From: a virus
Virus record (IMG/VR): IMGVR_UViG_3300032288_002884
Location: 1-22,285 of that record
DNA: 22,285 bases
Strand: one strand, 5' to 3'
The translations under genes were made by a program, and so were the position numbers. Below, piece by piece: positions 18,759 to 22,285 of this stretch. Under the pieces are notes generated by a model, which searched no databases, was not told the DNA's origin, and saw nothing but the letters and a program-made list of their open reading frames with translations. Position 1 is the first letter of the stretch. Every line of letters begins with the position of its first letter.

Positions 18759-19006
18759 GTGACCTCGTTGACAGGCTGCGCGTCCGATGGGAGGCGATGG
18801 GCGACATGGCGAACGACGAGCGCGAGGAAGCGGCCGACGAGATCGTCGCGCTCCGCGCCGAGGTGCGCCGGCTCGTCGAGGCCGAGTGTGAGACGGCCAA
18901 CATGGACGGACAGGTAGAGTCACTCCGTGCGCGCGTCCGCGAGCTGACCGAGCGTAACGCGCGACTTCAGTCCAAGATCCAGGAAACCGAGGTGCGCGAG
19001 ATATGA
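18755..19006 (+). CDS. Small coiled-coil protein 2 of 4
   Basis: From GTG 18755 (AAGGAGG 7 bases upstream), 83 aa: MSDLVDRLRVRWEAMGDMANDEREEAADEIVALRAEVRRLVEAECETANMDGQVESLRARVRELTERNARLQSKIQETEVREI. Heptads run over about residues 24-80, so it is nearly all coiled coil. It shares the L-V-D-R-L-R and E-A-A-D-E-I-x-x-L-R elements with its neighbours. Its GTG overlaps the previous TGA. Confidence 0.72.
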   Translation: MSDLVDRLRVRWEAMGDMANDEREEAADEIVALRAEVRRLVEAECETANMDGQVESLRARVRELTERNARLQSKIQETEVREI

Positions 19007-19245
19007 CCGACCCAGGCGACGAACACAACGACGAGAACCTCGTCACCCGCCTGCGGAGCCTGAAGCTCGACGCGGCCGACGAGGCCGTGCGAGAGATCAT
19101 GCGGCTGCAATCGCTGAACGCATGGACGACCAAGCTCCTCGAGCAGCAGAGCGAGAGGTGCGCCGTACTGTCGCGTGAGGTCGGACGGCTGCGAGCGATG
19201 ATGCCGTCGCATATCGAGCGCATCCTGTACGAAGGGAGCGGCTGA
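19003..19245 (+). CDS. Small coiled-coil protein 3 of 4
   Basis: This 80-aa protein is MTDPGDEHNDENLVTRLRSLKLDAADEAVREIMRLQSLNAWTTKLLEQQSERCAVLSREVGRLRAMMPSHIERILYEGSG. The ATG overlaps the previous stop (ATGA). It has the shared L-V-T-R-L-R motif followed by a helical, probably coiled-coil, body. Function unknown. Confidence 0.72.
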   Translation: MTDPGDEHNDENLVTRLRSLKLDAADEAVREIMRLQSLNAWTTKLLEQQSERCAVLSREVGRLRAMMPSHIERILYEGSG

Positions 19246-19246
19246 C

Positions 19247-19435
19247 ATGAAACCGGGGCGAGGGGAGTACGAGGAGGACATCGTCGACCGGGTGCGCGCC
19301 AGCGCGACCGCCGACCCGCTGACAATCGAGCTGATGCAGGAGGTCGTGTACCTGCGGTCAGAGATCGCGAAGCTGATGCGAGACATCAACAATGCCGCGC
19401 TGCGTGCGGCGAACCATCGGAGGCGAGATGATTGA
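19247..19435 (+). CDS. Small coiled-coil protein 4 of 4
   Basis: This 62-aa protein is MKPGRGEYEEDIVDRVRASATADPLTIELMQEVVYLRSEIAKLMRDINNAALRAANHRRRDD. D-I-V-D-R-V-R and E-V-V-Y-L-R-S-E-I echo the neighbours, in the most degenerate form. GAAGGGAG lies before the ATG. Its stop overlaps the start of the RusA gene by 8 bases. Confidence 0.7.
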   Translation: MKPGRGEYEEDIVDRVRASATADPLTIELMQEVVYLRSEIAKLMRDINNAALRAANHRRRDD

Positions 19436-19838
19436 GTTCGTCGTACCGGGCGCGGCCGCGCCACAGGGCAGCAAGCGACCGATGCGGCTACGCAGCGGAC
19501 GCACCGTGCTGATCGAGTCGAGCAAGCGCCTGAAGCCGTGGCGCGCGGTGTTCGCGCTGGCAGCGAGCGAGGCGTGGACGAACCCGCCCCATGCCGGCGT
19601 GGTCGCGCTCGAGCTGACGTTCAGGTTCGTGCGTCCGCGCTCGCACTTCACGGCGAAGGGCGCGATACGTGCCGGCGCTCCGCTCGCGCCCTCGAGGCCG
19701 GATCTTGACAAGCTCGTCCGTGGCGCGTGCGACTCGATGACCGGGGTCGTGTACGTTGACGACTCGCAGGTCGGCTGCATCTGGGCGGCGAAGGAATACG
19801 GCGACCGCGACGAAACTTTGGTCAGCGTCATCACGTGA
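19428..19838 (+). CDS. rusA: RusA-family Holliday junction resolvase
   Basis: From ATG 19428 (GGAGG just upstream), 136 aa. It starts MIEFVVPGAAAPQGSKRPMRL, with the P-x-Q-x-S-K-R element. It has a central L-T-F-R-F-V-R-P-R-S-H-F and the catalytic region PSRPDLDKLVRGACDSMTGVVYVDDSQV, with D92, D94, D102 and D111/D112. This is the RusA motif P-D-x-D-N/K-x-x-K/R..D-x-x..D-D-x-Q-V. RusA dimers cut four-way DNA junctions during recombination and before packaging. It stands next to bet, as expected for a phage recombination set. Length is normal for the family. Confidence 0.92.
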   Translation: MIEFVVPGAAAPQGSKRPMRLRSGRTVLIESSKRLKPWRAVFALAASEAWTNPPHAGVVALELTFRFVRPRSHFTAKGAIRAGAPLAPSRPDLDKLVRGACDSMTGVVYVDDSQVGCIWAAKEYGDRDETLVSVIT

Positions 19839-19846
19839 AGTAGAAT
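19818..19846 (+). promoter_or_regulatory. Promoter for a leaderless jelly-roll mRNA
   Basis: TTGGTC (19818-19823), 17 bases, then TAGAAT (19841-19846). The ATG of the jelly-roll gene begins six bases after the TAGAAT box, exactly where transcription would start, and there is no Shine-Dalgarno. The -35 part lies inside the end of rusA. Confidence 0.6.
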
Positions 19847-19852
19847 GCGGCG

Positions 19853-20437
19853 ATGCGCCAGGACACGACCGTCGTTACCCTGCAAAGGCAGCTTGCATCG
19901 CTGACATCGACCCTGCTTCGCTCGTCCAAGCGCGGACATACGCATCCGCTTTCGGAGTTGCAGCAAGGGAATGCGGCGAAGGACAACGTCATCGCATGGA
20001 GCGGCACGCAATGGATCGCGACCGCGCCGGCGGGTTCATCGCCCGTAGCCTTGACGAACGCATCGGCGTTCCTCGCCTCCGACGTCTTGATGGCCAGCGC
20101 GAACACCTGGTACAACGGGCCGTCCGTGTCGCTCGCTGCCGGCACGTGGCTCGTCATGGCGAGCGCGACGGTCGGCCGCACGGCCACGACTGCCGGCAAC
20201 TACAACATTCGCATCTCTGACGGACTCACAAACTACGCGAGCGTGCAGCAGTATCACGCGAGCGTCGCGAACAACTGGGCGGCGTTGAGCTGCAACGCGA
20301 TCATCACGCTGGCGTCGACGACGACGATCCTGCTTCAGGCGAACGGGTCAATCGCTGCCGACGTCCTCAAGGCGACGACGCCGAACAACAGCAGCGGCGC
20401 GAACGCGACCGGGATCGTGGCCGTGAAAATCGCCTGA
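19853..20437 (+). CDS. C1q/TNF-like jelly-roll protein, fibre-type
   Basis: This 194-aa protein has an N-terminal helical segment (residues 1-30, TVVTLQRQLASLTSTLLRSSKRG) able to form a trimeric coiled coil. A short G-T-Q-W-I-A-T-A strand like those of tail-fibre repeats follows, then a C1q/TNF-type jelly roll (about 75-194: NTWYNGPSVSLAAGTWLVMASATVGRT, NYNIRISDGLTNYASVQQYHAS, GIVAVKIA). That architecture suits a virion adhesin or decoration protein. It lies between rusA and bet, far from the virion genes and on the opposite strand, with its own promoter. Whether it is virion-borne is unknown. Confidence 0.78.
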   Translation: MRQDTTVVTLQRQLASLTSTLLRSSKRGHTHPLSELQQGNAAKDNVIAWSGTQWIATAPAGSSPVALTNASAFLASDVLMASANTWYNGPSVSLAAGTWLVMASATVGRTATTAGNYNIRISDGLTNYASVQQYHASVANNWAALSCNAIITLASTTTILLQANGSIAADVLKATTPNNSSGANATGIVAVKIA

Positions 20438-20446
20438 TTCACCCAC

Positions 20447-20497
20447 TTGACACGCTGATACCGGGGCGTATACTTATCCCGTCGAAGGCACGTTGCC
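20447..20497 (+). promoter_or_regulatory. Promoter and shared leader element before bet
   Basis: TTGACA (20447-20452), 16 bases, TATACT (20469-20474): a near-consensus sigma70 promoter. The leader contains GGCACGTTGCC (20487-20497), identical to 16170-16180 in the other early leader. Both promoters also share CACTTGACA around the -35 box. Confidence 0.75.
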
Positions 20498-20540
20498 GAC
20501 GACCGGGCGCGGCGTTCCGCGCAGACGAGAGGAGATTGAC

Positions 20541-21539
20541 ATGACTGCATTGGCACGACTCGACGACGACAAGCGCGATCTGCTGTCCCGCACCCTCTGC
20601 GCGGGCGCAAGCCGCGACGAGATGGAACTGTTCTTTAGCGTGTGCGACCGCACCGGACTCGACCCGTTTGCCCGTCAGATTTACGCCGTGAGGCGGTGGG
20701 ATAGCCGCGCAGGCCGCGAAGTGATGCAGACGCAGGTCAGCATCGACGGGTTCCGTTTGGTCGCCCAGCGCAGCGGCGAGTACGCAGGGCAGACGAGCGT
20801 CGCCTACTGCGGCACGGACGGTCGCTGGGTCGACGTCTGGCTCAACAATGAGCCGCCGGCGGCCGCTCGCGTCGGCGTCTACCGCAAGGGGTTCGTTGAG
20901 GCGGTCACCGCCATCGCCCTGTTCAACGAGTACGCGCAGCGCAAGAAGGACGGCAGCCTCTCTGGCATGTGGCCCAAGATGCCGACCGTGATGATCGCCA
21001 AGTGCGCCGAGGCGCTCGCGCTCCGCAAGGCGTTCCCCGCCGAGCTGTCGGGCCTGTACACGCCCGAGGAGATGGCGCAGGCCGACAACCCGCCGGCGGC
21101 ACCCGCCGTTCCCGCTGCCGCCGCGCTCCCGGCTCCCGAGGTCGTGGAAGCCGCCACGATGCCCCAGGACGCGCCCGTCGCCGAGGACGCCCCGAAGCCC
21201 ACCCGCAAGCGCAAGACGCCGCAGAGCGCCCCTGCGGCCGCCCCCGAGGCTCCCGCCGCGCCGGCGGTCGCCGACAACTACCCCGACGAGTACGAGGGGA
21301 AGTTCATGGTGCAGCGTGTCGTGCGCCGTCCCGGCAAGCCCATCGCCATCCAGGCCGCAGGCGAACACGGCACCGCGTGGATCGCGACCTCGGTCGCGGA
21401 GTACGGCGACCTGGCCGAGGCCAACATCGGCAGCGAGGTCACCCTCGAGATCGCGCGCATCGGGACGAGCCTGAACATCATGCGCGTCATCGGCCCGGTC
21501 AAGCCCATCGATGTTGACCCGGCAGACGTCCCGTTTTAG
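20541..21539 (+). CDS. bet: Bet single-strand annealing protein with C-terminal OB-like domain and SSB-like tail
   Basis: From ATG 20541 (GAGGAG 6 bases upstream), 332 aa. Residues 1-180 are a lambda Bet/RecT-type annealing protein: FFSVCDRTGLDPFARQIYAVRRW, QTQVSIDGFRLVAQRSGEYAG, WPKMPTVMIAKCAEALALRKAFPAELSGLYTPEEM. A Pro/Ala-rich linker (about 181-247) contains a basic patch. Then comes a beta-rich domain (249-319: YEGKFMVQRVVRR..GTAWIATSVAEYGDLAEANIGSEVTLEIARIGTSLNIMRVI) with OB-fold character. The last residues, VDPADVPF, resemble the acidic D-D-x-P-F tail of bacterial SSB. Bet anneals complementary single strands in phage recombination. The usual upstream exonuclease is not in the window. 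The earlier in-frame ATG (20493) is rejected because it lies before the ribosome site. Confidence 0.93.
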   Translation: MTALARLDDDKRDLLSRTLCAGASRDEMELFFSVCDRTGLDPFARQIYAVRRWDSRAGREVMQTQVSIDGFRLVAQRSGEYAGQTSVAYCGTDGRWVDVWLNNEPPAAARVGVYRKGFVEAVTAIALFNEYAQRKKDGSLSGMWPKMPTVMIAKCAEALALRKAFPAELSGLYTPEEMAQADNPPAAPAVPAAAALPAPEVVEAATMPQDAPVAEDAPKPTRKRKTPQSAPAAAPEAPAAPAVADNYPDEYEGKFMVQRVVRRPGKPIAIQAAGEHGTAWIATSVAEYGDLAEANIGSEVTLEIARIGTSLNIMRVIGPVKPIDVDPADVPF

Positions 21540-21562
21540 TTCATCACCGAGAGGAGATACCC

Positions 21563-22069
21563 ATGAGCCTGTACGCAATTACGTCCGAACTGGAAACCGT
21601 CCTCGACGCCATCCTCGAGGGTGGCGTCGACAGCCCCGAGGCGCAGGAGGCGCTGAACGAACACCTTGCGGGGCTGGATGCCGCGCTCGAGTCGAAGGCC
21701 GACGACTACGCGGCGCTGATCCGCAGCCTCGAGCTTCGGTCGGCCGCCCGTGTCGCCGAGGCGCGCCGCATCAAGGGACTCGCCGACGCCGACGACGCGC
21801 TCGCCGACCGCCTGAAGGAACGCCTCAAGGCGGCGATGGAGGCGAGCGGGAAGACCAAGCTGGACACCGCGCGGTTCAAGCTCGCGGTCGCCGGCAACGG
21901 CGGCAAGGCGCCGCTCGAGGTCACCGCCGACGCGGCGAGCCTGCCGCCCGAGTTCCAGACGGTGTCGGTCACGTTCAACCGTGACGCGATCCGCACCGCG
22001 CTCGAGGGCGGCGCGGTGATCCCAGGATGCACGATCCTCCCGCGAGGGACGAGCCTGCGTATCCGCTGA
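21563..22069 (+). CDS. Gp157-family protein
   Basis: This 168-aa protein starts MSLYAITSELETVLDAILEG. It has a central helical region (LESKADDYAALIRSLELRSAARVAEARRIKGLADADDALADRLKERLKAAMEASGKTKLDTARFKLAVAGNGG) and ends LPPEFQTVSVTFNRDAIRTALEGGAVIPGCTILPRGTSLRIR. This is the Gp157 family of phages, often placed next to recombination or SSB genes; its role is not settled. GAGGAG lies 6 bases before the ATG. It follows bet by 23 bases and is the last gene before the terminator. Confidence 0.92.
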   Translation: MSLYAITSELETVLDAILEGGVDSPEAQEALNEHLAGLDAALESKADDYAALIRSLELRSAARVAEARRIKGLADADDALADRLKERLKAAMEASGKTKLDTARFKLAVAGNGGKAPLEVTADAASLPPEFQTVSVTFNRDAIRTALEGGAVIPGCTILPRGTSLRIR

Positions 22070-22091
22070 TACGATCCCACTACCTCTTCTC

Positions 22092-22137
22092 CCCCCGCCG
22101 CGCGGTTGCAGGACGCGACCAACCGGCGGGGGTTTTT
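22092..22137 (+). terminator. Rho-independent terminator of the early operon
   Basis: CCCCCGCCG (22092-22100) pairs exactly with CGGCGGGGG (22124-22132), followed directly by TTTTT (22133-22137). This is the best intrinsic terminator in the window. Confidence 0.88.
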
Positions 22138-22144
22138 CAATGGA

Positions 22145-22187
22145 CAGGCGCGGCGAACCGGGGCGAACCCGCAGTCGGCCGCGCCTG
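22145..22187. repeat. 10-bp inverted repeat beyond the terminator
   Basis: CAGGCGCGGC (22145-22154) and GCCGCGCCTG (22178-22187) are exact reverse complements 23 bases apart. They lie between the plus-strand terminator and the end of the incoming minus-strand gene. It could aid termination on the minus strand, though no T-run follows in that direction. Confidence 0.4.
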
Positions 22188-22207
22188 CGCGAGAGGACGG
22201 GACGGCG

Positions 22208-22285
22208 TCACTTCTTGCCGAAGAGCTTGCCGAGGGAGCCGATGGGGACGACCTGCCCGAGGATGTAACCCGCGAGGAAGGTAAG
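22208..22285 (-). CDS. C-terminal end of a minus-strand gene, truncated by window edge
   Basis: The frame read leftward from base 22285 gives LTFLAGYILGQVVPIGSLGKLFGKK and a TGA at 22210-22208. The hydrophobic stretch LAGYILGQVVPIG followed by a basic tail suggests a membrane or lysis-type protein, but only 25 residues are seen. It converges on the early operon, with the terminator between them. The identity is unknown. Confidence 0.5.
   Translation of the reverse strand, partial: LTFLAGYILGQVVPIGSLGKLFGKK

Follow-up and report, generated by a model that had tools for sequence, protein, structure and literature searches.

A phage Bet annealing protein with a predicted OB-fold domain and a conserved SSB-type C-terminal tip

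Why should a phage annealing protein of the Bet family continue beyond its annealing domain and end in the manner of a bacterial SSB? The question is raised by a gene in a stretch of 22,285 nucleotides, called the window here, which is a 22-kb IMG/VR virus fragment from a freshwater phage. A preliminary description had proposed that the gene product joins a Bet annealing protein, a Pro/Ala-rich linker, an OB-like domain and an SSB-like ending, and that strand annealing, ssDNA binding and docking of host SSB-interacting proteins might thus be combined in one polypeptide. The structural genes of the window are podovirus-like, and its portal protein shares 74% identity with its counterpart in Limnohabitans phage DC33 and 64% with that in Bordetella phage BPP-1. 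On the capsid genes, Limnohabitans or another of the freshwater Burkholderiales may be guessed as host. A PADLOC search gave no match. A gene at 13988-14533 matches a ferredoxin family (PHROG 3704, 1e-12), an odd cargo near the replication genes. The features of the locus are collected in Table 1.

Table 1. Coordinates of the annealing protein gene, its parts and its neighbours in the window
Feature	Coordinates	Strand	Basis
RusA Holliday-junction resolvase gene, upstream	19392..19838	+	Pfam 4.9e-13
ORF without family match, between RusA and annealing gene	19853-20437		
Ribosome-binding site AGGAG upstream of ATG	20530..20534	+	sequence
Bet-OB-tip annealing protein gene, 332 aa + stop	20541..21539	+	ORF, family matches
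Annealing domain (RecT/Red-beta fold), residues 1-183	20541..21089	+	Pfam RecT, Foldseek
Segment exchanged for a different annealing domain in L038/L039/L041; flanks ~95% identical	20544..21117	+	blastn, alignment
Disordered Pro/Ala linker, residues 184-244	21090..21272	+	pLDDT ~40-50 over most
OB-fold domain (predicted), residues ~245-319	21273..21497	+	AF2 pLDDT ~90-97; VIA-align matches
SSB-type tip VDPADVPF, residues 325-332	21513..21536	+	conserved in 70/79 distinct homologues
Gp157 / Mu Gam-like (Sipho_Gp157) gene, directly downstream, possible partner	21563..22069	+	Pfam 1.4e-30

Judged by family match and predicted fold, residues 13-183 are a Bet/RecT annealing domain, the same as that of the Red-beta/RecT SSAPs (PF03837, TIGR01913), and the N-terminal assignment of the preliminary description is upheld. 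This segment matches Pfam RecT PF03837 at 3.5e-31, NCBIfam bet_lambda TIGR01913 at 1e-30, which is above the family cut-off, and PHROG 2780 (RecT-like) at 1.9e-64. With the full-length model, Foldseek retrieved Red-beta (7ujl, E 4.1e-7) and Listeria RecT (7ub2, E 3.2e-3). The protein and a profile of its C-terminal module, the OB domain and tip, gave chance hits only when searched against PDB sequences. In Red-beta, exonuclease and SSB are bound by a C-terminal domain built as a three-helix bundle (PMC8303780), whereas the C-terminal domain of the window protein is predicted to be an OB fold and the protein has an SSB-like tip of its own.

The two intervening parts are also as proposed: a Pro/Ala linker that is predicted to be disordered, followed by a domain that is confidently predicted to adopt an OB fold. 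Residues ~245-319 belong to no family in Pfam, NCBIfam or PADLOC. The AlphaFold2 topology is beta1-beta2-beta3-alpha-beta4-beta5, with a pLDDT of ~91 when the domain is modelled alone and ~95 in the full-length model; a fold unrelated to OB domains was not seen. VIA-align matched the domain to the RecO OB (Z 9.8), LEF-3 (9.6), a small SSB (8.6) and PriB (8.3). The top row was SilF (Z 10.5), a metal chaperone with a similar barrel, which was rejected as a functional relative. Foldseek with the OB domain returned OB proteins including RPA, at modest E values of 4e-3 and weaker, and a BFVD fold search returned LEF-3 and small phage OB proteins, a strong match being absent. The OB fold is common to the module and to SSB, and descent of the one from the other is not detectable at the level of sequence. 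The Pfam search did not place the domain in PF00436, and profile comparison with phage SSBs gave an alignment limited to the last six residues. Among the Gp2.5-like families only phrog_7011 was matched (E 0.017), and the aligned residues, 141-247, lie outside the OB domain.

Binding of ssDNA by this OB domain is uncertain. Five basic or aromatic positions are invariant in the family (R263, K/R266, W280, R306 and R/K315). Read from the order of strands in the model, the first four fall in the beta1-beta2 loop, in beta3 and at the end of beta4-beta5, and they would thus sit at the usual nucleic-acid site of OB folds. The domain is acidic, with a net charge of -3.1 in the window protein and a family mean of -3.3, and may therefore bind ssDNA only weakly by itself; the seven cores of phage SSB or OB proteins used for comparison range from -1.5 to +2.6, all less acidic than the module. 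A domain of this charge might, rather than bind DNA, mediate contacts between proteins, with Gp157 for instance or in oligomerisation. The presence of a Sipho_Gp157 gene in 33 of the 35 module-bearing contigs would fit such a role, but the four invariant residues at the presumed nucleic-acid face and the presence of RPA, RecO, SSB and PriB among the best fold matches argue against it. We regard an interface function as rather unlikely, and since the tip might dock in that case as well, it overlaps with the adaptor function discussed below.

The ending was compared across 79 distinct module C-termini, collected from two scans of viral contigs and one scan for ERF proteins. An acidic residue followed within two residues by [LIVM]PF is found in 70 of them, a count that is not made up of independent cases because many of the homologues are close relatives of each other. 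The stretch between OB domain and tip differs in both length (10-25 residues) and sequence. All four proline codons are used in the tip (CCC/CCG/CCT/CCA, 35/21/9/5), the phenylalanine is written TTC or TTT (56/14), and the residue before the proline is V, L, M or I (33/25/6/6). Varied synonymous codons, exchange among V, L, M and I, and variable spacing indicate that it is the peptide and not the DNA that is conserved. The tip is, on these sequence grounds, under selection, and the SSB-like ending noticed in the single protein proves to be a property of the family. An accidental and functionless P-F ending, for which the 9 distinct homologues without a tip could be cited, is barely credible: the tip is kept in the other 70 across three fusion partners while synonymous codons and linker length vary, and elsewhere in this DNA such endings are found for the most part on SSBs or next to annealing genes. 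Chance alone was rejected as the origin of the ending, on the conservation across homologues.

The nine C-termini without the tip are those of L024, L027, L159 and L034 and of five ERF proteins. The five ERF-module proteins (L129, L137, L138, L169 and L183) end in EEVF or EEIF as against EEVPF, the proline being lost and the terminal phenylalanine kept. L034, together with L096, was rejected as a case of real tip loss: there are several frameshifts in the contig, affecting the annealing domain, the C-terminus and a split Gp157 gene, and these point to an assembly fault. The module tips, PADVPF and KQEVPF for example, are less acidic than the E. coli SSB tip (DDDIPF in the literature), and the window tip is modelled at a pLDDT of ~66-70.

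Annealing proteins without the module lack the tip, save for a few independent cases. A distant Bet protein (L042:1702-2700) has a different C-terminal domain and ends in PDDLPF, possibly an independent fusion of like kind; profile comparison gave no link to the OB-tip module, and no further relatives of this protein are among the sequences collected. Two ERF proteins without the OB module (L214 and L216) end in NEDDIPFA and DAKDIPF. A small protein (104-codon frame) of no assigned family, encoded near an ERF-OB-tip gene (L202:507-818 and L203:507-818), ends in DTDIPF and so adds a second phage protein with a tip.

Where the phages that carry the module keep their SSB was asked of 35 contigs with the module, 31-41 kb long, and 35 control contigs, which have annealing genes and lack the module. 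A PF00436 SSB was detected in none of the former and in 12 of the latter (Fisher p 1.6e-4), absence being judged by family HMM on contigs of unproven completeness. A separate ORF with a tip lies near the annealing gene at 2 of 83 module loci, as against 21 of 76 control loci (5e-6); the control figure includes tips on the annealing protein itself (L042 and L216), which leaves the direction unchanged. No YqaJ or DUF3799 exonuclease was found in the module phages by family HMM. YqaJ is also rare in the controls (3/35), and since most of these lack it too, the absence of an exonuclease from the module phages is weak evidence.

Isolated relatives show the two functions apart. Their annealing proteins are tipless, and the tip is carried by an adjacent or nearby SSB: DEDVPF in S-H1, DDEEVPF in S-LBS1, FDEDIPF in CHRF_10034, GDDLPF in 11b and EEDIPF in Rogue1. 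Among the phages closest to the window in their capsid genes, DC33 and ctEw122 each encode an exonuclease and a tipless RecT, with one tip-bearing protein several kb away from the latter, an SSB in DC33 (MDDDIPF) and a 106-aa ORF in ctEw122 (DDDLPF). BPP-1, another capsid relative, uses a Gp2.5-like protein instead. Annealing and SSB functions that are separate in other phages thus seem to be joined in the window protein. The database record of DC33 (L285, PQ492659) bears the taxonomy line Inoviridae, yet its gene content is that of a tailed, podovirus-like phage of 39 kb.

The module is not tied to one annealing domain. It is fused to three annealing families, namely Bet, a second RecT-like family and ERF (PF04404). 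The second family (MELARIGQ...GLGLSDYDAM; L038, L082-L095, L139 and L143) has no Pfam match and only weakly matches PHROG 561/4171. On a tree of the modules the annealing-family label changes at least 11 times, as against 31 in shuffles. The exchange can be read directly by comparing the window with L038, one of the contigs carrying the second family. In blastn and alignment the two are ~95% identical over 18761-20543 and again over 21118-22285, with no similarity between; the first tract, up to position 20543, stops exactly where the start codon of the annealing gene is complete. With flanks this close and nothing in common between them, it is the annealing domain alone that has been replaced. 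A second pair with related modules, L010/L116, shows a like pattern, and L016/L143 and L026/L139 have matching modules behind different annealing domains, with flanks that align less completely. The module was not found in a scan of bacterial and archaeal genomes, nor in the isolated phages or plasmids searched.

Computation shows the domain architecture, the OB fold, selection on the tip, portability of the module, replacement of the annealing domain and the lack of a separate detectable SSB, whereas contact of the OB domain with ssDNA, binding of the tip to host SSB-interacting proteins and the identity of such partners are inferred. It is fairly probable, in our judgement, that the module serves as an SSB-like adaptor in cis, by which host SSB-interacting proteins are docked onto the annealing filament. 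The N-terminal domain would bind and anneal ssDNA, and the flexible linker would project the OB domain and the acidic x-P-F tip away from the filament, much as SSB presents its tips. The tip could then enter the pocket for the SSB C-terminus on host genome-maintenance proteins, with RecO, RecJ, ExoI, RecQ and PriA as candidates. In this way phages without an SSB or a recognisable recombination exonuclease of their own might bring host nucleases and mediators to the annealed ends. As to the combination of annealing, ssDNA binding and docking in one protein that had been proposed at the outset, the joining of annealing to an SSB-type docking tip gains strength from the portable module, the lack of a separate SSB and the swaps; ssDNA binding by the OB domain, at a net charge of ~-3, stays in doubt.

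The tip might, however, act within the annealing complex, by binding a pocket of its own or a neighbouring annealing domain or by shielding the DNA groove, and so control filament assembly. SSB tails are read in trans by RecT (PMC10711431) and by Sak4 (PMC5928155), and a tail tethered in cis could fill such a site. A nearly unchanged module is found behind three annealing families and is kept through domain swaps, and a tip that stays the same through such exchanges is not what a docking site on a single kind of annealing domain would lead one to expect; a role confined to the complex is therefore unlikely. A decoy is another conceivable use, in which the tip would compete with host SSB and divert host nucleases and helicases from the phage DNA. 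Free SSB-Ct peptides do compete for the pockets of SSB-interacting proteins, and the neighbouring Gp157 family is annotated as Mu Gam-like end protection. But a decoy would have no need of an OB domain or of being joined to an annealing protein, and we consider it quite improbable.

Among known systems, T7 gp2.5-type phage proteins also unite an OB fold with annealing in a single chain, but there the OB itself anneals, while the window protein anneals through a Rad52-superfamily domain. The bacterial-type SSBs (PF00436) encoded near annealing genes elsewhere have the same OB fold, disordered linker and acidic x-P-F tip; the window OB differs in being covalently attached to the annealing protein, not detectably homologous, shorter and more acidic. 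In HK620 the SSB recruits the annealer Sak4, and stimulates it, through its last six residues, NDYPPF (PMC5928155), so that a tail links the annealing protein to ssDNA metabolism in both systems, in trans in HK620 and in cis in the window. SSAP families share a helical, Red-beta-like C-terminal domain (HTH), which has been attributed to domain shuffling, and in Firmicutes phages erf usually adjoins ssb (PMC8093625). The shuffled HTH domain is likewise one C-terminal domain on different annealing families, but in the window a predicted OB fold and an SSB-type tip take its place, and the exchange is readable at base level. No description of an OB-tip module on annealing proteins was found in the open-access literature searched.

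RecT function depends on or is linked to the SSB C-terminus, whose recognition in the host has also been connected with the host range of recombineering annealers (PMC10711431). In the phages described here an SSB-type tip has apparently been placed by nature on the annealing protein itself, and annealing domains have been exchanged ahead of it. We see about an even chance that the portable OB-tip module makes any phage annealing domain, whether Bet, RecT-like or ERF, a self-contained annealer and SSB hub, with the annealing domain swapped as a cassette from start codon to linker and with the tip, rather than the annealing fold, as the seat of host compatibility. Should the tip indeed dock host factors, modules fused to other annealing proteins could show which part sets host compatibility, and the window protein would be a natural case of an SSB hub function moved onto a recombinase.
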